A stretch of DNA of 33,509 bases from a virus. Below the pieces are notes generated by a model. That model worked only from the letters and a program-made list of their open reading frames with translations. It ran no database searches and was not told the origin of the DNA. The stretch lies in the IMG/VR virus record IMGVR_UViG_3300025759_015067, positions 1 through 33,509 of that record, one strand, 5' to 3'. Of the stretch, positions 2,110 to 16,667 are shown in pieces; position 1 is the stretch's first letter, and every line of letters starts with the position of its first letter. A program made the translations under genes and the position numbers.

Positions 2110-2959
2110 CCAAAACTGGCTGAATCTTCGAGGAATATGCTGTACACAAAACCATATGGTTCTCAAAGTTTGTTGAATATACTGAAAAGCTTGTTGAGAC
2201 ATCTTCTTCTTTATAGCTCTTGACGTGCTTCTTGATCTTGTTCGTCAAAGAGGGATCTTCGTCTAGATCTGCCTCTGGGATGCCGTAAAAGAAGTGAATA
2301 TCTCTTGTCTCTTCAATCGGATACAAAAGCTTAATGTCACTCTCATCTTCATCAAGTGACGAGACGCCGAAAGTGGCAAGCCTTGCAATGTTGTGGGGCT
2401 CTATCTTGTTGGCAAGAATAGGCTCAGTATGATCAAAGAAGTTAATCATCGCTACGACATACGAAATGAAATAGGAAACGCTGTTCTCATATTCCTGAAT
2501 GGGTACGTCACCGACGAGGTTATCAACCGCTTGGCGGTGGACAAGGAAGATCTTTTCAAACACACCGCTCCGAGCGTACTCCTGCAAGACATTAAAAGCG
2601 ATCTTATCATCACGACGCTGGATCTCTGAGCACATCACTCTGTCGGGAACAATATAAAGAACATTTAGCTTGGAGTCTTTGATTGTTTCCAGTATTTTTA
2701 ATGTTGCCCCAGAAACAGGGTCGCCGCCTTCAAGAACTAGAAGGATCTCATCCTTTTTCTTAATGGAGCGCAGGTAAACAGCAACCGAATCCTGATCCAA
2801 CATATGCTCGTAGTCGTCCATCCCTGAGTATTCCCCAATGGAAAGGCTACCACGCTCATCAATCTCTGAATCTATCTTGTATATTCTATATTCTGGGTAT
2901 GCAGTGAGGTGCTCGACAACAGCGCAACCAAGTTTACCTAGTCCAATGACTTTATCCAA
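2099..2959 (-). CDS. Degenerate tubulin/FtsZ-like protein
   Basis: The 286-residue protein follows the FtsZ order in sequence. An N-terminal glycine loop GLGKLGCAV (residues 6-14) corresponds to FtsZ T1. A strand IYKID comes next, then EGGDPVSGAT (77-86) in the place of the GGGTGSGAA loop. NVLYIVPDR and a long helical stretch (110-175) follow, ending FGVSSL, and then a C-terminal domain-like section HFFYGIPEADL...VSTSFSVYS...VLCTAYSS, resembling the FtsZ beta-sheet domain. The nucleotide loop is altered (GGDPVSG) and the catalytic loop NxDxxD is replaced by something like NKIEPHN, so GTP hydrolysis is doubtful. The start is TTG at 2959: an in-frame stop lies just upstream and the first ATG would remove the T1 loop. 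AAGGA stands 8 bases ahead. The start overlaps the polymerase stop by 8 bases, implying coupled translation. The fold is inferred by eye, not proven. Confidence 0.6.
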   Translation of the reverse strand: MDKVIGLGKLGCAVVEHLTAYPEYRIYKIDSEIDERGSLSIGEYSGMDDYEHMLDQDSVAVYLRSIKKKDEILLVLEGGDPVSGATLKILETIKDSKLNVLYIVPDRVMCSEIQRRDDKIAFNVLQEYARSGVFEKIFLVHRQAVDNLVGDVPIQEYENSVSYFISYVVAMINFFDHTEPILANKIEPHNIARLATFGVSSLDEDESDIKLLYPIEETRDIHFFYGIPEADLDEDPSLTNKIKKHVKSYKEEDVSTSFSVYSTNFENHMVLCTAYSSKIQPVLDTI

Positions 2960-4172
2960 TGTGCATATCCTTCATAGAACCCAGAGTTTTACCTCTTTTT
3001 ATGTTTACCTTGAAAGTCCCAAAGTTTGTTGAACTCATAAGGGCTATCAATGGTTTAATTAGGTTCTCATCCTCTTTTTTCATATCAAGAACGACGGCAT
3101 CGTGGATCAAGAAAGCGATGTTCGAACCAGCAGAGCGAGTACGGAGCAAATACTCTAGCTTTAGAGCCTGCTTTAGCGTCAGTTCTGCCGCAGTAGATTG
3201 AACCAAGTAGTTCAGAGCGTGATGCTCGCTTGTATCGGCTATTTGCTTCCTAAATGGCGTTCTAACTGTGTTGCCATCCCAATATTCTTCGAGTAGTCGG
3301 TCCTTTTCGTAGAAACTAGCCAGTTTTTGCATATCTTTCTGACTTACAGCAGTCTTTGACCCATAAAGCCAAGCAAAAAACGCCACTTTTGCGTCATTTC
3401 TGGTGCTGATGTTTGTAAAAACGTTTTCTAAGTGAAAATCGTGGACATCTTCTTCTGGTTGTGGCTTGCCGAGGAGTCCCAACAGCGTTCTGACCTCTGC
3501 TCCGTTGAAATCTAGCTCAATGAAGTAATCATTCTGAGGCAGAATCGCTGATCGGAAGTCTTTATTGAGCGTCAAGATGGGAAATGATCCCTTCTTGGTT
3601 GTGAGTCTGCCTGTTTTTGTCCCGAACTGATTGTAGTCAACGTATGGTTTGTTGTCTAGGATCATCTTTGCTTGATTCTTTAGCTTGGGAGAGGTCATAT
3701 AGGACTTGACAAGCTTTGGATCGATCTTGACCCTTTTTGTTGCGATGTCTCCCAGCATCATAGAGACGTGCTTATAGAACTCATATCGATCAGGCTTTTC
3801 AATGGTCTTCACGATGTGTTCACATATTTTATTTTTTACCTCGCAAAAGTCCACCAAGAACCTTTCGGGAACCAGATCAAAAAAGCAGTTGTCGTAGGTG
3901 TTGACCTGCGAGATAGCCAAGGACCTCTTGAAAGCCTGAATCTTCTTAGAAACGTCTTCCCAGTCATCTTGTAGATACTCTGGGATGTTATCACTAATCT
4001 TGCCACCCTCCAGATACAACGACACATAATCTACATCGATATCACGTAAGTACGGAGCGTACTTCCAAGTCATTGTTAGATCGTCTGGGAACTGCTCTAA
4101 GTCAAACAGTAGCTGATTATGTGTATAGATTCCTACGCACTCGGTTTTGTCGTCTAGTGTTTGGAAGATCAT
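2952..4172 (-). CDS. Family A DNA polymerase, polymerase domain only
   Basis: This 406-residue protein carries the palm and finger motifs of DNA polymerase I-type enzymes: TGRLTT (187-192), motif A ELDFNGAEVR with catalytic Asp221, motif B with the spacing R-x3-K-x3-F-x3-YG (258-271), the NYLVQSTAAEL helix, and motif C LIHDAVV with catalytic Asp358. Motif C has HDA where family members have HDE, and motif A has FNGAEVR in place of YSQIELR. The roughly 180 N-terminal residues show no DEDD proofreading signature, so exonuclease activity is absent or encoded elsewhere. T4 itself uses a family B enzyme; the T4-like Rhodothermus phage RM378 is recalled to carry a split family A enzyme. I chose the ATG at 4172, with AGAGG just ahead, over a TTG seven codons earlier. 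It overlaps the upstream gene by 56 bases. Confidence 0.9.
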   Translation of the reverse strand: MIFQTLDDKTECVGIYTHNQLLFDLEQFPDDLTMTWKYAPYLRDIDVDYVSLYLEGGKISDNIPEYLQDDWEDVSKKIQAFKRSLAISQVNTYDNCFFDLVPERFLVDFCEVKNKICEHIVKTIEKPDRYEFYKHVSMMLGDIATKRVKIDPKLVKSYMTSPKLKNQAKMILDNKPYVDYNQFGTKTGRLTTKKGSFPILTLNKDFRSAILPQNDYFIELDFNGAEVRTLLGLLGKPQPEEDVHDFHLENVFTNISTRNDAKVAFFAWLYGSKTAVSQKDMQKLASFYEKDRLLEEYWDGNTVRTPFRKQIADTSEHHALNYLVQSTAAELTLKQALKLEYLLRTRSAGSNIAFLIHDAVVLDMKKEDENLIKPLIALMSSTNFGTFKVNIKRGKTLGSMKDMHIG

Positions 4173-5634
4173 CTGTTTCCTCTTCAGCGCCAATTATATC
4201 CCCGACTGTTCTCAATGTTAAAGGGTCGGTATCATAGGGTCCAATATATTCTTCCTGTGCGTATCGGAGCGATCTCATATATTGATTTTCTGTGCTTAGG
4301 TTGTAGATGTTCATCATCTGTTGAATCTCTCTTCTTCTTATCCTTGATGTTCGCTCAGGGTCACGCTCTGTTAGCCTAGAGAGATAAAATGTTTTTAGTT
4401 TCCAGCGATCACCGAATCTAGCCACAAACTCTTCTTCGGTTATCTGCTCTCTGGTCATAACTTCTGTCTTGGGAACACAATCAACCAAAGTGTATTCGTC
4501 ACGCATAGAGACGGTTGGTGCCGTAGCGACATAGGTGTTGTAGAATCCTAAAATATAAGTCTCAAGCAGATCAACGTCTGTCTTCCAGGTTTCATCATAG
4601 GCTGTTTCAAACAAAATCTCAAACACCTCTTCCTGAGAGGATGCATCCTTGGCTGGCTGATATTCTTGATATCCAGGCTGGATGTTACCTTCGCTGTCAA
4701 AGTGAGTAGAGATACGGCGCTTAACAGTTTCCAACCCTGGGACCTGAGAATAGCCGAAAGCCATAGGAGCCAACTCTTTATCCAAGAGTGTGGGATCACA
4801 AGGAAGAGGATCAGGATAAGAATCCTCAAACCCTTCAATGGGGACGCCATACATATATTCTTGCATAGCTTGGCTTCTTAGGTCTGCTACGAGTCTCCAA
4901 GGAATGTTCCTATCAATAGAAAAACCATACTGCGCTACGATGTTAGATACAAGCTCAAAGTTTTGATCCAAGTATTCATAAGACTTTGTAAGATCTTCAG
5001 AGTATTTGTCATTGGATATCTCAATCATCAATCCAGACATTAATGGAGAGACACTGACACCTTCGATGTAACCGCTCAAAGTAGTGGGTCCCACTAGGGA
5101 AACAGCAACATCTATGTACTCATCAAACACTGATAGGAAGTTGTCTATGTTTTTTATTCTTCTCTCTTTGTTCCCTGTAATCAAGAACTGTTCAACAAAG
5201 AATCGATATACAGTTTCTCTCATATACTCATCATATTGAACTGTTATTGGATTCCAAGCCTTTACAATAGTAGGTTCCGCCCAGGGACTGTTTCTGTAGA
5301 TTATGTTTTGATCGGCTAGCTCTCTCAACCTTGTGGATAGATCGTACCAAGCGTCTGCCACGAAGTTCATAGCAAACTGGCTCTGATTATCTGCAAAGTA
5401 TAATGACTTTAGAAATCTCTGGTCGGGAATGACTGTATTGCCCTTTGTGTTTACAATGCCATAAAACCTGTCAGCAGACCAAGTGCTGGTCGAGTTCACA
5501 ATCAAACCTTCGGGAAATATAAAGCGGCGATAAAGATCTCTCTCAATAAAAATCTGTGAAGAGTTTAGCTCGTTCGAACCATAAGAGTAAAGCTCTGGAT
5601 TGTTTACGGGAGAGGGTCTAAGTTGGTCTGCCAT
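4117..5634 (-). CDS. Large unidentified protein at the end of the baseplate gene run
   Basis: I do not recognise this 505-residue protein. It is rich in Tyr, Asp, Glu and Arg, lacks signal peptides or membrane segments, and has a charged C-terminus rich in Arg (RRQNRVRRNLYT). Long segments such as the 60-150 region are aromatic-rich, as in baseplate and neck structural proteins. Its start overlaps the stop of the hub-like gene by a TAATG junction, so translation is coupled to tail genes, while its 3' end overlaps the DNA polymerase start. The context makes a virion, probably baseplate-associated, protein most likely, but no motif proves it. Confidence 0.7.
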   Translation of the reverse strand: MADQLRPSPVNNPELYSYGSNELNSSQIFIERDLYRRFIFPEGLIVNSTSTWSADRFYGIVNTKGNTVIPDQRFLKSLYFADNQSQFAMNFVADAWYDLSTRLRELADQNIIYRNSPWAEPTIVKAWNPITVQYDEYMRETVYRFFVEQFLITGNKERRIKNIDNFLSVFDEYIDVAVSLVGPTTLSGYIEGVSVSPLMSGLMIEISNDKYSEDLTKSYEYLDQNFELVSNIVAQYGFSIDRNIPWRLVADLRSQAMQEYMYGVPIEGFEDSYPDPLPCDPTLLDKELAPMAFGYSQVPGLETVKRRISTHFDSEGNIQPGYQEYQPAKDASSQEEVFEILFETAYDETWKTDVDLLETYILGFYNTYVATAPTVSMRDEYTLVDCVPKTEVMTREQITEEEFVARFGDRWKLKTFYLSRLTERDPERTSRIRRREIQQMMNIYNLSTENQYMRSLRYAQEEYIGPYDTDPLTLRTVGDIIGAEEETDDLPNTRRQNRVRRNLYT

Positions 5635-9577: not shown

Positions 9578-11503
9578 TTATGCCATTACAGGGTCGTATG
9601 CTTTGCTGACTCCTGCTCTAACATTTTCATTCTCGCCTATTTCTTTGCCATCCAAAAGAACACTAAGGTTTTTCGCCAGGATCTTTTCATTGATAGCGAT
9701 AAGTTTATCAAGTTTTGCTGCCGTCTGATCCATAGTTCCGCCAGACCTACTAAGAGTTGCTGTATCTCTTGGTCCGCCGACCATAGTTGGTCTGCCAGCC
9801 TGAGAAATAACTGGCCCTGTTTGAGCAGATGATGACGAGGGGCGCACTGCGTAAGCAATCCCGCCAGGACCAGATATTGCATCGTCAACAGGTATAATAC
9901 TAGTAGCAGCAGTTCTGCCTAGTCCGTAGCCAATCGCAGCACCCACAGGACCACCGGCTATAAAGCCTGCAATGCCGCCAACGATGCCGCCAATTGACTT
10001 AAGTGCAGATGACTTTTGTGCTTTAGGGTCGCCACCAGTGCCATACCCAAAAGCCCCTAGTATGTCCTTGATAGCCAAAACAATAGAAAGGACTGGAGCA
10101 ATCTTTGCTGCCAAAGATGTAAGGATGTTAGTCAGACCAGTGCCAGCAACACCAAGTTTAACTAAGACTGCTAAAACTGTGCCAGCAAAGCTGATGACTG
10201 CCCCAAAGAAAGGCAAGGACATCACATCATTGAAAAACTCTGCAATACCACCAAAAAGTGACATCATTCCTGTTAGTAGTGGTTCAAGGTTAATAAACAA
10301 CTGCTCTGATACTGCCCTGAACTTATCCATAGCGGTTGTAAAGGCTTTCACTCTTTCTGCATTATTTTCTTGTTCCTTTTGAAACTTTCTCAATTCCATT
10401 GGGTCGCCTAAAAGGCGCTCAGCGGTCATCACATCCGTCTGTAATATCTCAGCAACCATTTGCCTTTGGCGGCGAGACATCTGATCAAAACGCATACCTT
10501 CCATATCAAACTCTGCACGCAAGATCTTAAGCCTATCTTCAGAAGAGGCTGCCATAAGTTCGACAGAGTTTAGTTGCAAGCCCAACTGTGCGTTCAATTT
10601 GCCAGCAACATCGGCGGAACTCTCAAAAGTATCAAACAATTCCGAAAGGTCAAAAGCCTGACGTGTTGTCAGACCCAGGGTTCTCGCTTGTTCGTTCAAT
10701 CTTGTAAAGACTCGAACACCGTCTGATCCGAACCTGGACATCTGAGGTGCAAGATCTTGAAAGTCGTTGACAACTGAAGCCAGTGGCATACCAGTTCTGA
10801 TAGCCAAGTTTTCCAACTCTGCGGCTGCGGCGATGGCACCTGAGGTGGTCAACCCAAAACCTTCATTAAGCTGGTCGATGACTGTGGCGGTTGCAGAAGC
10901 GTCAACCCCTAGTACCTTAAAGCGCCCAGCTAGATCATTGACTTCTCTACGAGTCTGCTTGTTTTGGGCGTTATACATCCTAAAGCCTGTTGAAAGTGCT
11001 CCGACAACCTCCCTACTTTCAGACATAGAAAGATACAAGCCGTCGTGACTTGATGCAAGGTCAATAACATCTTGCTGTAAAGCTGTGGCAAAGCCTGTTT
11101 GTTTTGCAAGTGCTACGTTAGTCTCTTCAATGGTCGCTGCCATCGAAATCATACTTGCAATAAACGAGTCAGCAGCTTCTTTTCCGTCTATTATCCCTTC
11201 CTCATTCTTCTTGAATGCGGATGTTAATTTATCCATTCCTGGAGCAACCTGACCAATCGTGCTTCCTACTTTGTCTAGAGCCGAGTTATAATCAGATAAA
11301 GCTTTCTTGAGTTTCTCTACCTTTTCGGTTGTCCCCTCTAGTGAATCCTGAAATCCTCTTTGAACCCTTATTGCGTTCTTGTAAAAAATACTGTCTTCAC
11401 CATAGAGACTCTTCATATCTTCAGCGATACGAGACTGATCTTTTAGCTCCTTAGTTTGCTGCTTCAGGAGGGCTAACTGTTCTTTTAAACTTTCGTTTGC
11501 CAC
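9578..11503 (-). CDS. Tail tape measure protein (gp29-like)
   Basis: The 641-residue protein begins with a long charged coiled-coil-like region (about residues 1-75) and contains several Ala/Gly-rich hydrophobic stretches, notably around 425-490 (GAVISFAGTVLAVLVKLG) and 500-535 (IGGIVGGIAGFIAGGPVG), followed by a polar, Ser/Pro-rich tail. That combination is typical of tape measure proteins, which span the tube lumen and set tail length. T4 gp29 is 590 residues. The start is GTG at 11503. It follows the small gene at 11513-11842 by 9 bases, and the gp26-like/frameshift gene pair lies just ahead, the standard chaperone-then-tape-measure order. Confidence 0.85.
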   Translation of the reverse strand: MANESLKEQLALLKQQTKELKDQSRIAEDMKSLYGEDSIFYKNAIRVQRGFQDSLEGTTEKVEKLKKALSDYNSALDKVGSTIGQVAPGMDKLTSAFKKNEEGIIDGKEAADSFIASMISMAATIEETNVALAKQTGFATALQQDVIDLASSHDGLYLSMSESREVVGALSTGFRMYNAQNKQTRREVNDLAGRFKVLGVDASATATVIDQLNEGFGLTTSGAIAAAAELENLAIRTGMPLASVVNDFQDLAPQMSRFGSDGVRVFTRLNEQARTLGLTTRQAFDLSELFDTFESSADVAGKLNAQLGLQLNSVELMAASSEDRLKILRAEFDMEGMRFDQMSRRQRQMVAEILQTDVMTAERLLGDPMELRKFQKEQENNAERVKAFTTAMDKFRAVSEQLFINLEPLLTGMMSLFGGIAEFFNDVMSLPFFGAVISFAGTVLAVLVKLGVAGTGLTNILTSLAAKIAPVLSIVLAIKDILGAFGYGTGGDPKAQKSSALKSIGGIVGGIAGFIAGGPVGAAIGYGLGRTAATSIIPVDDAISGPGGIAYAVRPSSSSAQTGPVISQAGRPTMVGGPRDTATLSRSGGTMDQTAAKLDKLIAINEKILAKNLSVLLDGKEIGENENVRAGVSKAYDPVMA

Positions 11504-11512
11504 GACCTAGCC

Positions 11513-11842
11513 CTATCCCTTGATGGGCCAGTTGATACCAGCTTCTCTTTCGAATCTGTTGATAGCGACCTGAAGCTTGGCTTTTTGCTTGTAGGTCATA
11601 GGGTCGTCTAGACCGTACTTCTTAATGAAGTCAAGATATCTTTTCTCGTTTACCAAGGCGTCAGTAAATCTTTCTACTTCTATTCTGTTCCCTTTAACAC
11701 GTACAGGAACTCGCCTTCCCTTGAACATCTTAGACAAGAGATACTCGATCCAAGCCGCAAAGACGTGGAGAATATTCTCGTTAAGTTGTTTGCCTCGAAA
11801 CTGTGTGAGATCTAAAACATCATTTTCAAAATCGATTTGCAC
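11513..11842 (-). CDS. Small unknown protein ahead of the tape measure
   Basis: This 109-residue protein is unknown to me. It has a hydrophobic central helix (ILHVFAAWIEYLLSKMF), a basic segment GRRVPVRVKGNRIEVERF, and a charged helical C-terminal half. The start is GTG at 11842, with AAGGGGG about seven bases ahead. It is immediately upstream of the tape measure gene, so a role in tape measure folding, tail initiation or length control is plausible from position. It is too small for T4 gp51 and shows no clear match to it. Confidence 0.65.
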   Translation of the reverse strand: MQIDFENDVLDLTQFRGKQLNENILHVFAAWIEYLLSKMFKGRRVPVRVKGNRIEVERFTDALVNEKRYLDFIKKYGLDDPMTYKQKAKLQVAINRFEREAGINWPIKG

Positions 11843-11894: not shown

Positions 11895-12107
11895 TTACGG
11901 AGTATACTTTCTTCCCCTGCCCTTTGAACTTGATAATGCTTTTGATTGGGCTTCTTGCTCTTGGTTCTTTTGTTCCGCCAAGCGGTTTAGGAACCATACT
12001 CGAACGCTGATAGGGAGGTTGTACGACTCAAAGAAACTCCAACCGCCATAATACTTCAGTTGGAATAGCTGCTCGTAAACGCTCTCTATGTATTGATCAT
12101 CCAGGCC
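11895..12107 (-). CDS. Downstream reading frame without a start, probably reached by frameshift from the gp26-like gene
   Basis: This 70-codon frame is open from GGC at 12107 to TAA at 11895. It encodes a well-formed protein with YEQLFQLKYYGGWSFFESYN, LPISVRVWFLNRLAEQ and a basic Lys/Arg/Ser tail. The frame is closed by a TGA shortly upstream, and between that TGA and the conserved part there is no ATG, GTG or TTG; the first TTG comes about 47 codons in. It lies +1 relative to the gp26-like frame, which stops three codons after a run of seven T. Fusion would add this domain to the FFW end of gp26. Alternatives are a CTG start or a one-base homopolymer sequencing error that split one gene. Confidence 0.65.
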   Translation of the reverse strand, partial: GLDDQYIESVYEQLFQLKYYGGWSFFESYNLPISVRVWFLNRLAEQKNQEQEAQSKALSSSKGRGRKYTP

Positions 12108-12981
12108 AAAAAAAGTCAGTATTCAGCGGAACCTCCATGTCCGCCGAATGACCGCAGTTAGTGCAGTCAAACACCTGTGTCATATCAATATTTGGCACAC
12201 AAGCTGAGTAGGTGTTCCGAAGGATACGACCATCTCTTGCTGGTAGTGCTTGAATGAATGACTCAATGACCAATGGAGATTCTTGTCCGTTGACGCTAAC
12301 AATGTAGCTTCTGAACATATCTGTCATTGTTCCTGTAGCTTGTTTTCTTTTTGCCTTGCGCTCTGACTCTTTGTAGAGTCTTAGTTCATCGGCACCTGTC
12401 AACATCTTACACTCAACGACTGCATTTGTCATTGGTAAAGTTATTAATAGGTTCCCTTCATCTGTGAGGACAGCAGCGTTCTCTTCAATGTTACGCTCAT
12501 ACTCAGTGACTGAAGGCTCTGAGATATCGAACTCAAACTCATCTGTGGTGCCACACGCTGGACAAGTGACTGATGTCTGATAGCCTGGTCCGTACCCTGT
12601 TCTTCTTGCTGCCACCAAAAGAGCGTTCTTGTCACCGATCAAAAGGGTGTCAATGCGAACACCTTCTTCAACAACCAAGCTCTGTAGCATTCTGTCTAGG
12701 GCAACACCCTCTTTTAGCAATGCACGGGAAGTAAGAATGTCTTCTTCCTTTGCAGTCATATACTTGATCTCTACAGAGGTCTTATTATGAAGTGGGTGCC
12801 CTTGTGGGTAGAATCGTCCACCACTTGGCAGTGTTACAAACTCAGTTGGTACTGACCAAGAGAATGTTGGTTGGGCAGCAGGTACACCAGCGCCTACCGT
12901 TGTAGCAACAGCAGGTGTTGGTGTATCGTCTTGGGGAGTAAAATCTTCAGGAAATCCTGTTCTATTTTCGTTGCGACTCAT
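12097..12981 (-). CDS. gp26-like baseplate/tail assembly protein
   Basis: The 294-residue protein carries the pattern seen in T4-like gp26 relatives: FVTLPSGGRFYPQGHPL (residues 48-64), EIKYMTAKEEDILTSRALL (71-89), and ALPARDGR. Two cysteine pairs, CPAC (140-143) and CTNC (273-276), could bind one zinc ion. The first 40 residues are Pro/Thr/Ala-rich and probably disordered. T4 gp26 (208 residues) is needed for baseplate hub assembly. The gene lies between the tail tube gene and the tape measure, the position of tail assembly chaperones in many phages. It ends FFWPG then TGA, right after a T7 run and a +1 open frame. The ATG at 12981 has GAAAGG ahead of it. Confidence 0.75.
   Translation of the reverse strand: MSRNENRTGFPEDFTPQDDTPTPAVATTVGAGVPAAQPTFSWSVPTEFVTLPSGGRFYPQGHPLHNKTSVEIKYMTAKEEDILTSRALLKEGVALDRMLQSLVVEEGVRIDTLLIGDKNALLVAARRTGYGPGYQTSVTCPACGTTDEFEFDISEPSVTEYERNIEENAAVLTDEGNLLITLPMTNAVVECKMLTGADELRLYKESERKAKRKQATGTMTDMFRSYIVSVNGQESPLVIESFIQALPARDGRILRNTYSACVPNIDMTQVFDCTNCGHSADMEVPLNTDFFWPG
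12108..12114 (-). promoter_or_regulatory. T7 run: candidate frameshift or transcriptional slippage site
   Basis: Seven T on the coding strand follow GAC in the gp26-like frame and are read as Phe-Phe-Trp. Slipping +1 (or -2) here leads into the 70-codon open frame that has no normal start codon. The zero-frame stop TGA follows within three codons. Tail genes before the tape measure often use such shifts: phage Mu is known for -2 and lambda for -1. I did not find an obvious downstream pseudoknot. Confidence 0.5.
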
Positions 12982-13028: not shown

Positions 13029-13595
13029 TTAGTCAGCAGCAGATGTCTGATCTCTGCCGTTAGCCTTAGTCTGGGTAAGTCGAGCCCAGTCGTATGTGAC
13101 TTCTACGGTTACTTCGTTCATATCGTCAGAAGTATAATCCAAACTTCCACCGAAGTCAACAGAAGTAATGAATGGGTTGATGAGTTCCCAGCGCTCAATG
13201 ATTTCGCCAGCTTCGTCGATCTGGTCGATGAAGACAGAACCGATCTGCTCAGCGAAAAGCTTCTTGCTCAAGCTGAGCTTGGAGCGTGAAGCTGTGGTTG
13301 GGAACTTGTAACCAGCAGCACCGAGAACGTCCAAGAAAGCGTAGGACAAGTCTGGGTCAACTGGGTCTACCAAAGTAATGGAGATTGGATCCCAAGTGAC
13401 ACGACCTGGATACTTGAATGTGTGGTCGATGTACTGGTGTTCAATGGTACTGACGTTAGCCTTTGGCTTGCTGGCTGTTTTGATTGTCCATACTGGAATA
13501 GCGCCTTGCCCTAGGGTGCGGCTACTAAACTTAAGTTCAAACCTAAATCTGCGCTTTGGCTCAGTTCTTACGTCGTTCCAAAATAAGCTTGACAT
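13029..13595 (-). CDS. Tail tube protein (gp19-like)
   Basis: The 188-residue protein matches the usual size and style of T4-like tube subunits (T4 gp19 is 163 residues). It has an aromatic/basic start, RRFRFELKFSSRTLG, then PVWTIKTASKPKANVST, YIDHTFKYPGRVTWDPISITLVDPVDPD, and a C-terminal strand set with NPFITSVDFGGSLDYTSDDMNEVTVEVTYDWA, a pattern characteristic of the tube fold. It polymerises into the rigid inner tube through which DNA is ejected. It directly follows the tail sheath gene, with 42 bases between, as in T4 (gp18 then gp19). Confidence 0.88.
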   Translation of the reverse strand: MSSLFWNDVRTEPKRRFRFELKFSSRTLGQGAIPVWTIKTASKPKANVSTIEHQYIDHTFKYPGRVTWDPISITLVDPVDPDLSYAFLDVLGAAGYKFPTTASRSKLSLSKKLFAEQIGSVFIDQIDEAGEIIERWELINPFITSVDFGGSLDYTSDDMNEVTVEVTYDWARLTQTKANGRDQTSAAD

Positions 13596-13637: not shown

Positions 13638-16600
13638 CTAGTCTTCAAAAGCTGCCCCACTGTTTGTAACCACGAAGTCGATTGCGAAGTACTCTACGGA
13701 GCGAGTTGGCTTGACAAGCAACTTAGCATAAATAATGTTTCGATCAATGAGGTCTGGAGTTGTTGTTGTTTCGTCTAGGATTAGACGGAAGTCATCAATA
13801 CCAAACTCAGCACGAACACTTTCTAGAACTGGTCCAGCCTGACCCAAGAAGCGATCCCAAGTATCCTTTGCGTTTGGTCCGAAAAGGAGGCGGGAAGCGA
13901 TGAATGAAATCTCACGCTTCAAGAAGATCATCAAACGGCGGACGTTGATGCGATCTAGAGCAGAAGCTGTCTGCTGTAGAGTCTTTTGACCGAAGATTAC
14001 AATACCTTCAGCAGGGAACTTAGCGATTGGGTTAATGTTGTTTTCGTAGAGTCTGTCACGATCATCTGATGTGAGTCTTCTAGAAACATCCAATACTGGT
14101 AGACCAGCAGCACCTTCACTCAAGCCACCTCTGGTGAAGCCAGCAGGAGCGAACCAAGGAGCGTTCAATCTATCTGTTGAAGAGAGAACACCCAAAGCTG
14201 GTACTGTTGGTGGTACCCAAAGGTTCTGGTTTGAGTTTGTGTCTAGGATGCGTACCCAAGGATAGTATGTAGCACCGTAACTGTTGTTGATGCTACGATC
14301 AGCCAAGGTGTTAGCTGCTTGAGTAGGTGTGTTTCCTTCGTTTCTTGTTTGAGCACTACCTGTGTCTTCAGTGTCTGGGGTGTAGCCGTACTCAATGTCA
14401 ACTAGTGCCAAGGCGTCGCCACGCTCTTCAGCAATGTCAAGTAGAGAATCAGTTACTTCAGCCTTCCAGACGCCTGGGATTGTAACAGCATTCATTTCCA
14501 CAAAGTCTTGATCGGAAGCAATGTTGATTGCCTTTCTCAAGCTGAAGAGTTCGTATGAAGCTTCTTCTGTTGAACCGATCTTTCTGTTTGCAAATGGTTC
14601 ACGCTCAGAGATGTCGTAGCCGTCGAAACCACCTTGAAGAGTGGTTGTGAAACGGTCGATTGATCCGCTGAGAACGTCCTTGTAGGAGTTACCAGCCTGA
14701 GCACTGATAGCTGTACCAGCGTTACGTGAGCCGCTAGCGTATGTGAAAACGCCGCTTGATGGTTGTTGAACATCGTCTAGGGAGAATACCCAGGAGATAG
14801 ACAAAGCTGATGTTGTTGCTCTTGTTGGTGTGTCGCCTTCAACATCGTGATCTGTAGATGCTGGGTTAGCGTCTTCGCCTAGAGAAGCTACATCAGCAGA
14901 ACGAACTCTCAAACAATCGTGGATCTGCTGGGAGAAAAAGGTGTCATCACCTGCTCTACCTGTCCAAGCACCCCAGTAGGTGTTGTTGAGAGATCTTGGC
15001 TTGCCCCAACTGCTTTGACCACGTAGTGGTACAGATGGGAACACAATGGAGCCACTGAATTCTGCTGTAGAATAGCCGCCGATAGTTGGTACATCCAAAA
15101 TGTCGATTGTGTTAGTGGCGTGACCAATGTTGCCGTAGTTGGTATCAGAGCCACCGAGAAGCATTGTAAGCATATCACCACGAGAAGATGATAGTGGGGT
15201 TGCAAGATCTTCAGAGAAGCCACTTGAACCGCTAACAATGCCGACGCTGCGGTACTGGAGAGGACCGAAGACGCCGAATGGTAACCAGCGACGCTCACCG
15301 CCACCAGCAGCAACTGTGTCGTTCATTACTACACGAACGAAGTTTGACTTGTTTTCGAACTCGCCATACTCTACAAGGCGTTGTTCGTTTTGGTCGTAGA
15401 CCATGTACTTGTCACCGATGCGCTTAGCAATGTAGCTATCAGCAGCAGGGTTCAAAGTTAGACCATCATAGCGCTCGATGACTACTGGACGGTTGTCTGT
15501 GTCCTGTAGGTCACGGATGAGTACAGAGAATGAACCGTAGTCTTGGTAATCACCTTCTGGTGCTTTGATGTTAGCAATAGATATTTTTACTTCCCTTTGA
15601 GTTGACTCACCAGCACTTAGAGCTTCGAGGCGGAAAAGCTTCTGCATAGCTCTTGCTTGATAAGCAGCGTTGTTGGAACTAAGGTCCTGGGAAATGAACC
15701 AACCTGTGGAAGCTCTTGAAGCAGCACCACGGAAGTTGTTTTGTTGATTGGAAGCATCAAGACCAGCAGCTTCCTGAACAGCCATTGGGACCATAGCAGC
15801 GTAGTACTTGGTGGTTGAGCCGCCATCTAGAACACCAATAGAGCTAGCACCCTTAGTTACCAAAGAGTTTTCGAATGTTTCACCAAGCCAGTAAATACCT
15901 TTTTGGTAGAAGTCTTGAGTCTCTTGCTCTGTGATAGCATCATTTGTGATTGTTGGGTTAGTATTGAGAGCCTTGCGAATGAAGTTCTCTTGGTCTCTGT
16001 TAAGACTGACTGTTACCTCTTCAGAGAACTGACCGCCTGTACTACCTGTGAAAACAAGAGTAATGCTGTTTAGATCATCAATCTCGTAGATTGTGCTACC
16101 AGCTTGGGCTGTGCCGGAACCACCGTCAACACGATCACCCTTTAGAAGGACACGACCACTGTTCATATAAATCTGAGCAGCTACTGAACCTGTAAGGACA
16201 TCGGTTCCAGCGTTTGAGCCAGAAGGCCAAACGCAGAGTGCATAAACACCACCAGCATTGTTTTTAGCTGCCTCGGTGCCTGTGGTAGCAAACTCGCTCA
16301 CTTCCCAACCAGCCTTACCGCCAGCAGAAGCATTGGTAGACTCATCACCCAATACACGGATGAATGTCAATGGAGATCCGTTCTGAAGCCAAGCTTGTGC
16401 AGCATATGCAGCGTAGGTTGGAGCAGTCAAGTTGCCCTCACGCCATACATCGTTGCCTTGGGCACCAGGAACTGGATTGCCGAAAGTCTGAACAAAGTCA
16501 GAAAATGAATCTACAGTAACAGGCTTATCGGCAGGACCTTTTCTGGCTCTACCGATAACTAGTGGACCAACTGCACCTGGTGTGTCAGGTAGCTGGGATT

Positions 16601-16667
16601 GGTCGATCTCGCTAATGAATACCCCTGGGGATATGAATTTGAACTTTCTTGAAGAGTTGTCAGCCAT
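13638..16667 (-). CDS. Tail sheath protein (gp18-like), very large
   Basis: The 1009-residue protein is the contractile sheath subunit. The N-terminus KFISPGVFISEIDQSQL and GPLVIGRARKGPAD is the classic sheath opening. The C-terminus has the conserved sheath core: EGIVIFGQKTL, LDRINVRRLMIFLKREI, SRLLFGPNAKDTWDRF and IDRNIIYAKLLVKPT. Both ends meet in the conserved core, while a long middle part (about residues 150-820), rich in Gly/Ser/Thr and beta-like sequence, forms surface domains. T4 gp18 is 659 residues, so roughly 350 extra residues are inserted there. The ATG at 16667 has AGAAGGA ahead. A late-motif copy and 110 bases of non-coding DNA separate it from the gp15-like gene, suggesting its own promoter. 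Confidence 0.92.
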   Translation of the reverse strand: MADNSSRKFKFISPGVFISEIDQSQLPDTPGAVGPLVIGRARKGPADKPVTVDSFSDFVQTFGNPVPGAQGNDVWREGNLTAPTYAAYAAQAWLQNGSPLTFIRVLGDESTNASAGGKAGWEVSEFATTGTEAAKNNAGGVYALCVWPSGSNAGTDVLTGSVAAQIYMNSGRVLLKGDRVDGGSGTAQAGSTIYEIDDLNSITLVFTGSTGGQFSEEVTVSLNRDQENFIRKALNTNPTITNDAITEQETQDFYQKGIYWLGETFENSLVTKGASSIGVLDGGSTTKYYAAMVPMAVQEAAGLDASNQQNNFRGAASRASTGWFISQDLSSNNAAYQARAMQKLFRLEALSAGESTQREVKISIANIKAPEGDYQDYGSFSVLIRDLQDTDNRPVVIERYDGLTLNPAADSYIAKRIGDKYMVYDQNEQRLVEYGEFENKSNFVRVVMNDTVAAGGGERRWLPFGVFGPLQYRSVGIVSGSSGFSEDLATPLSSSRGDMLTMLLGGSDTNYGNIGHATNTIDILDVPTIGGYSTAEFSGSIVFPSVPLRGQSSWGKPRSLNNTYWGAWTGRAGDDTFFSQQIHDCLRVRSADVASLGEDANPASTDHDVEGDTPTRATTSALSISWVFSLDDVQQPSSGVFTYASGSRNAGTAISAQAGNSYKDVLSGSIDRFTTTLQGGFDGYDISEREPFANRKIGSTEEASYELFSLRKAINIASDQDFVEMNAVTIPGVWKAEVTDSLLDIAEERGDALALVDIEYGYTPDTEDTGSAQTRNEGNTPTQAANTLADRSINNSYGATYYPWVRILDTNSNQNLWVPPTVPALGVLSSTDRLNAPWFAPAGFTRGGLSEGAAGLPVLDVSRRLTSDDRDRLYENNINPIAKFPAEGIVIFGQKTLQQTASALDRINVRRLMIFLKREISFIASRLLFGPNAKDTWDRFLGQAGPVLESVRAEFGIDDFRLILDETTTTPDLIDRNIIYAKLLVKPTRSVEYFAIDFVVTNSGAAFED

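Follow-up and report, generated by a model that had tools for sequence, protein, structure and literature searches.

A major review treats the G-T frameshift as a conserved trait of long-tailed phages, with T4 as the exception (PMC5009743). According to later papers that cite it (PMC12846349, PMC10885494), the study of Vladimirov, Gautam and Davidson (2022, Virology 566:9-15, doi 10.1016/j.virol.2021.11.003) identified the tail assembly chaperone genes of T4-like phages and frameshifting in several of their groups. As cited from the same study, some T4-like phages have separate short and long chaperone genes (PMC10885494), and T4-like TAC-N genes carry poly-T signals for a -1 shift (PMC12846349). 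A +1 shift in a chaperone gene between the tube and tape measure genes has been proposed for the HF1 group and HSTV-2, which are haloarchaeal myoviruses, with TTT-CGC as the site in HF1 (PMC7230728, PMC5009743). The +1 site of influenza PA-X reads UCC_UUU_CGU (PMC3498833).

The stretch of DNA analysed here (the window) comprises positions 1 to 33,509 of IMG/VR record IMGVR_UViG_3300025759_015067, from an uncultured virus. On its minus strand, a gp26-like gene overlaps a frame that lacks a start codon, and we hold it highly probable that the two form one chaperone gene, from which a +1 programmed ribosomal frameshift at a YUU_UGG site yields both a short product (TAC-N, 294 aa) and a long one (TAC-NC, 361 aa). 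The features concerned are as follows:

9578 to 11503, minus strand: tape measure protein (phrog_167, E 6e-15)
11513 to 11842, minus strand: small open reading frame of 109 aa between TAC-C and the tape measure gene
11895 to 12122, minus strand: start-less second frame of 75 codons, read as TAC-C; 70 aa after the predicted shift, from 12107
11898 to 12981, minus strand: predicted fusion TAC-NC (P0003), 361 aa, translated with a one-base step at the site
12097 to 12981, minus strand: gp26-like gene, read as TAC-N, 294 aa, with its TGA stop at 12097 to 12099 (PF12322, phrog_150)
12103 to 12114, minus strand: putative shift site TTT TTT TGG CCT (TTTTTTTGGCCT), invariant in 71 of 71 relatives and codon-invariant in 52 window-clade sequences
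12109 to 12111, 12106 to 12108 and 12105 to 12107, minus strand: P-site UUU, A-site UGG and +1 A-site GGC, respectively, in the shift-site reading
12115 to 12117, minus strand: GAC codon preceding the T7 run; the codon here never ends in T in relatives
12131 to 12135, minus strand: Shine-Dalgarno-like GAGGT, its GAG codon invariant in the window clade
13029 to 13595, minus strand: tail tube protein, gp19-like (phrog_4542, E 1e-23)

The gp26-like gene ends with GAC TTT TTT TGG CCT GGA TGA, its T7 run occupying positions 12108 to 12114 of the minus strand. In the second frame, which is offset by +1 (or -2) and heads toward the tape measure gene, the same run is read as ACT TTT TTT GGC CTG. A TGA in its own frame closes the upstream end of this second frame, and its upstream half holds no ATG, GTG or TTG. 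An earlier interpretation made without database searches (the sequence-only reading) had described the locus correctly, as a start-less, TGA-closed frame of 70 codons and a gp26-like frame that ends just past the T7 run, and had rightly placed it between the tail tube and tape measure genes. Its proposal that a +1 or -2 shift joins the two frames stands in that the joining is very probable, with +1 rather than -2 as the probable sense of the shift.

Close relatives were collected by searching IMG/VR with the 75-aa second frame, which gave 70 loci, and were completed with Microcystis phage Mel-JY01 from the phage collection (71 in total). In the alignment of relatives that the sequence-only reading had proposed, both the T run and the out-of-frame junction were kept throughout: each of the 71 reads TTTTTTTGGCCT in frame at the end of its gp26-like gene and has its second frame at +1. 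T runs of at least seven are uncommon elsewhere in these loci (the shift site accounts for 71 of the 84 in 391 kb), and the junction is therefore conserved far beyond chance. Differences in the second frame fall on codon positions 1, 2 and 3 at 29, 11 and 60%, respectively; judged by this substitution pattern, with its excess at third and scarcity at second positions, the frame evolves as protein-coding sequence under protein constraint. Within the window clade (52 sequences), 66 degenerate columns were conserved at the protein level, and only four of these were codon-invariant, namely TTT, TTT, CCT and one upstream GAG. The window site is strongly conserved and, from such sequence patterns, probably functions in +1 programmed frameshifting.

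A wider set was assembled with gp26-like proteins of other phages as queries, which added 180 IMG/VR loci and brought the analysable junctions to 256; the Trp motif was present in 238 loci, 192 of them distinct. Among these 192 distinct junctions, the codon before TGG was TTT in 159, CTT in 29 and CTA in 4, and CCT followed TGG directly in 190, although all such counts overstate the independent evidence, as the junction sequences are related. TTC was never found before TGG, compared with 25% of Phe codons elsewhere in the same genes, and in the four CTA cases UUU_C stands just before. The same codon rule was seen in three diverged groups. The shift-prone codon and its successor are thus conserved beyond coding needs, as seen both in the restriction to TTT, CTT or CTA before TGG and in the codon-invariant columns. 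The base preceding T7 was also constrained, being T in none of the 135 codons able to end in T, where codon use predicts 76. With a T at this position the site would become U_UUU_UUU, a classic -1 site, so that the avoidance of T removes the -1 heptamer. Nor does the window resemble the -1 site of T4-like phages (U_UUU_UUC), since its second frame lies at +1 and a T before the run is avoided in its relatives. One contig outside the Trp-motif set, from a Winogradskyella MAG (L399), reads TTT TTT TTC CCT, with an eight-T run and a +1 second frame, and is an exception to the avoidance of T8.

Two frames, a conserved site with its restricted codons, constraint on the protein sequence and missing starts are all properties of the sequence itself, from which we infer the occurrence of the shift and its efficiency. 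Most ribosomes would translate GAC UUU UUU UGG CCU GGA UGA and terminate there, giving a TAC-N of 294 aa. In a fraction of cases, the ribosome would stall while tRNA-Phe occupies the second UUU and the A site holds UGG; the tRNA would then slip one base forward onto the overlapping UUU, and GGC would take the place of UGG. The shifted ribosome would then read 70 more codons to complete the 361-aa TAC-NC, with the predicted junction ...NTDFF-GLDDQY.... The proposed rule is a YUU codon followed by U, which would let the P-site tRNA re-pair onto UUU in the +1 direction. Nineteen fusions of the TAC-NC type align over their full length, end to end.

When 53 sequences of the window clade and 50 others were folded, the mean z was about 0, as in the control, and no conserved RNA structure was found 3' of the site; nor was a Shine-Dalgarno element found at the RF2-type spacing of 3 nt. 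At 19 nt from the P codon, the GAGGT is unusually distant, beyond the range of known stimulators. Its GAG is nevertheless present in 52 of 52 window-clade sequences, compared with a 47% share of GAG among Glu codons elsewhere.

An identical fusion product would be expected from transcriptional slippage, whereby RNA polymerase drops one U on T7 and the shortened mRNA is read in frame. The T7 run on which this depends is found in all 71 close relatives and in 144 of the 192 distinct junctions. The remaining 48 junctions argue, across the family rather than for the window alone, against polymerase slippage as the general mechanism: the longest T run at the site is at most four in 45 (TTTCTTTGG, TTCTTTTGG, TTTCTATGG) and six in 3, with the +1 relation unchanged. 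Moreover, T8, which would be expected to slip more, is avoided through the choice of the preceding codon, and SP-15-like phages use UUU_CGN. We therefore consider slippage improbable, although it is the best of the alternatives to a ribosomal shift.

Less probable still is that the second frame is a separate gene, entered by re-initiation or from a non-standard start (ATA, CTG) with the help of the GAGGT, which lies 9-12 nt before the ATA and CTG of that frame and includes the invariant GAG of the window clade. Separate translation would suit the annotation of Mel-JY01 as two CDSs, as well as two relatives (L179 and L184) in which the second gene starts with ATG. It leaves unexplained, however, both the TTT/CTT codon rule and the avoidance of T before the run, and 46 of the 192 distinct junctions have a second frame devoid of ATG, GTG and TTG. 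In five loci (L021 and L038-L041), the codon immediately preceding ACT TTT TTT is a TAG, which excludes an independent upstream start there. As for the direction of a ribosomal shift, a -2 step would reach the same frame with one extra Phe, and the frame relation by itself cannot separate the two. Such a step is nonetheless very unlikely: at TTT CTT TGG and TTC TTT TGG sites a tRNA moved back by two bases would pair poorly, whereas nearly every junction retains the ability of YUU_U to re-pair onto UUU at +1. Finally, although homopolymers are prone to sequencing errors, there is almost no chance that a continuous frame was misread or that the gene is decayed, since all 71 records share the junction, which is also seen in two cultured phages with T7GG (Mel-JY01 and RM378) and at sites that have no homopolymer, and the six or eight T named by the sequence-only reading as signs of an unbroken frame occur there in none of the 71 relatives.

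The +1 ribosomal frameshift is also consistent with the kind of protein encoded. The gp26-like protein matched PF12322 (T4_baseplate) over residues 51-292 with 55.1 bits (cut-off 24.5) and the baseplate hub family phrog_150 (E 3e-16); a sequence search of the PDB with it gave no relative, and an alignment of nine diverse gp26 proteins was too divergent for use as a query. The TAC-N and TAC-C parts were modelled separately with AlphaFold2. For the gp26-like model (pLDDT 86), the top PDB match was the HK97 tail assembly chaperone 2ob9, which ranked first in Foldseek, if weakly in absolute terms (E 0.76), and also first among 350,542 chains in VIA, with a modest Z of 5.8 (rmsd 4.7, 88 residues; next 3.7). 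The TAC-C model is a three-helix domain (pLDDT 84). A profile of the second frame (ORF2) matched the TAC-C of SP-15 with 82% and that of DSL-LC02 with 70% probability, and other matches were weak; T4 gp51 gave no signal against this profile, and the ORF2 model found only weak three-helix matches in a viral fold library. The gp26-like protein carries CxxC pairs and is larger than the lambda G-type, HK97 and P2 chaperones.

Gene order on the minus strand runs from the sheath through the gp19-like tube, the gp26-like gene, the second frame and the 109-aa open reading frame to the tape measure, and the tube and/or tape measure genes occupy the same places around TAC-N and TAC-C in Mel-JY01, immuto and SP-15. 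Together, the fold match, the three-helix C-terminal part and this gene order fit lambda gpG and gpGT, and both gene place and fold agree with the earlier suggestion of a tail assembly chaperone that has two forms. By analogy with the lambda proteins, in the chaperone role that we infer, TAC-N would cover the tape measure protein, tail-tube subunits would be recruited by the helical C-terminal domain of a few TAC-NC copies, and both forms would depart before the tail is completed. For the 109-aa frame, a Pfam/PHROG-type family search gave no family above noise. The tail sheath protein (13638-16667, minus strand) is unusually long at 1009 aa and ends in the known C-terminal sheath domains. The tail genes are followed directly, also on the minus strand, by genes for a DNA polymerase-like protein (2952-4193), which matches its profile in the late portion only, and a single-strand-binding protein (692-1483).

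Other members of the family use different sites at this place. SP-15, GXN1, BRock and most SP-15-like contigs have UUU_CGN or UUU_CAC with the second frame at +1. In most of this more distant SP-15-like group the site is UUU_CGN, which differs in sequence from that of the window but still allows re-pairing at +1. The second frame lies at -1 in XacN1 and RAS14, with U_UUU_UUU_A, and in PA5oct, Atu_ph07, phiAS5 and cyanophage DSL-LC02, with U_UUU_UUC. Among 78 DSL-LC02-like contigs, the second frame was always at -1 and T_TTT_TTC was present in 77, and 39 of 51 distinct contigs of this kind carry GGAGG exactly 10 nt upstream of the site, a common distance for stimulators of -1 shifts. An ATG in the -1 frame, five bases past the gp26 stop, is also present in many of these cyanophage-type relatives (L305-L384), and a shift and a separate start may coexist there. 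On a rough tree, the deep forks of which are poorly supported, three labels required five changes, implying more than one change of shift direction.

Loss of the shift can also be traced. An ATG of the second frame's own, which the sequence-only reading had set against a shift, was found in two relatives, and these are the ones in which the slip site is destroyed, so that it does not speak against frameshifting in general. The site now reads TTC TTG TAT CCT in L179 and TTC CTT TGG CCA in L184, and in both (1477-2543 in L179) the second part opens with its own ATG just past the gp26 stop. To judge from their sequences, these are natural losses of the frameshift in two lineages that gained an ATG. 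In Pseudomonas phage Cygsa01, the ATG of the second part (L088:2809-2982, annotated as hub assembly catalyst) overlaps the gp26 stop (TAATG), and coupling may stand in place of a shift. T4 has no second frame after gene 26, where gene 25 comes next. Its gp51 matches the TAC-N end plus TAC-C in fusions from Cygsa01 and phiAS5 (pairwise E about 5e-8), a match that a separately encoded long form (TAC-NC) would be expected to give. Overall, the balance tips toward a chaperone family that switched shift direction more than once while keeping its place, its Phe codons and the kind of product. A large uncultured clade would use +1 at YUU_UGG with the -1 heptamer purged, SP-15-like phages +1 at UUU_CGN, T4-like and jumbo phages -1 at U_UUU_UUC or U_UUU_UUU, and some lineages an ATG of their own.

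The abstract of the Vladimirov study reportedly names genes 26 and 51 and describes the frameshift as conserved in several T4-like groups. Indeed, the view of the sequence-only reading that such a shift is not described for T4-type gp26 was wrong, T4-like chaperones with frameshifting having already been published (Vladimirov et al. 2022). Our literature search, the full-text scope of which did not extend to that study, found no paper linking gp26 with a +1 shift. Apparently new here are the YUU_UGG +1 site, its avoidance of the -1 heptamer, the difference from relatives with a -1 site, the change of direction within the family and the two lineages with site loss and ATG gain. T4 gp26 falls in a family of which most members probably shift, although T4 has been listed as the exception (PMC5009743), and in this family +1 and -1 sites at one and the same place can be compared cleanly in nature. 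The site is short, no RNA structure is visible 3' of it, and its rules can be put to a direct test: YUU_UGG would be required, and a T ahead of the run would be forbidden. On this reading, the "baseplate hub" gene of hundreds of contigs, and of cultured phages such as Flavobacterium phage immuto, SP-15 and Mel-JY01, has a second half that has been missed or called a separate gene.

Compared with known systems, the window would share with the chaperones of lambda (G/GT), HK97 and P2 a short and a long form from overlapping frames before the tape measure gene; these systems shift by -1, in contrast to the proposed +1 in the window, and have no detectable sequence similarity to the window protein. 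Closer are gp26 and gp51 of T4-like phages, which share with the window the PF12322 family, a possibly related C-terminal helical domain, two forms (predicted ones in the window) and, in many, a location ahead of the tape measure gene. Those T4-like and cyanophage members that were compared have a -1 site and T4 itself has two separate genes, whereas the window would shift by +1 at UUU_UGG. At the site itself, RF2 (CUU_UGA) likewise slips +1 from a P-site YUU, and CUU_UGG is found in 29 of the 192 window relatives, but the A-site codon of the window is UGG rather than a stop, and its nearest Shine-Dalgarno-like element, GAGGT, is 19 nt away and not 3. In PA-X, YUU slips +1 as proposed for the window, with CGN instead of UGG in the A site, and UUU_CGN is shared with the SP-15-like relatives. 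The HF1 group resembles the window in the proposed +1 shift and in gene place but differs in the site: the window has TTT-TGG, and its SP-15-like relatives have TTT-CGN, as does HF1.
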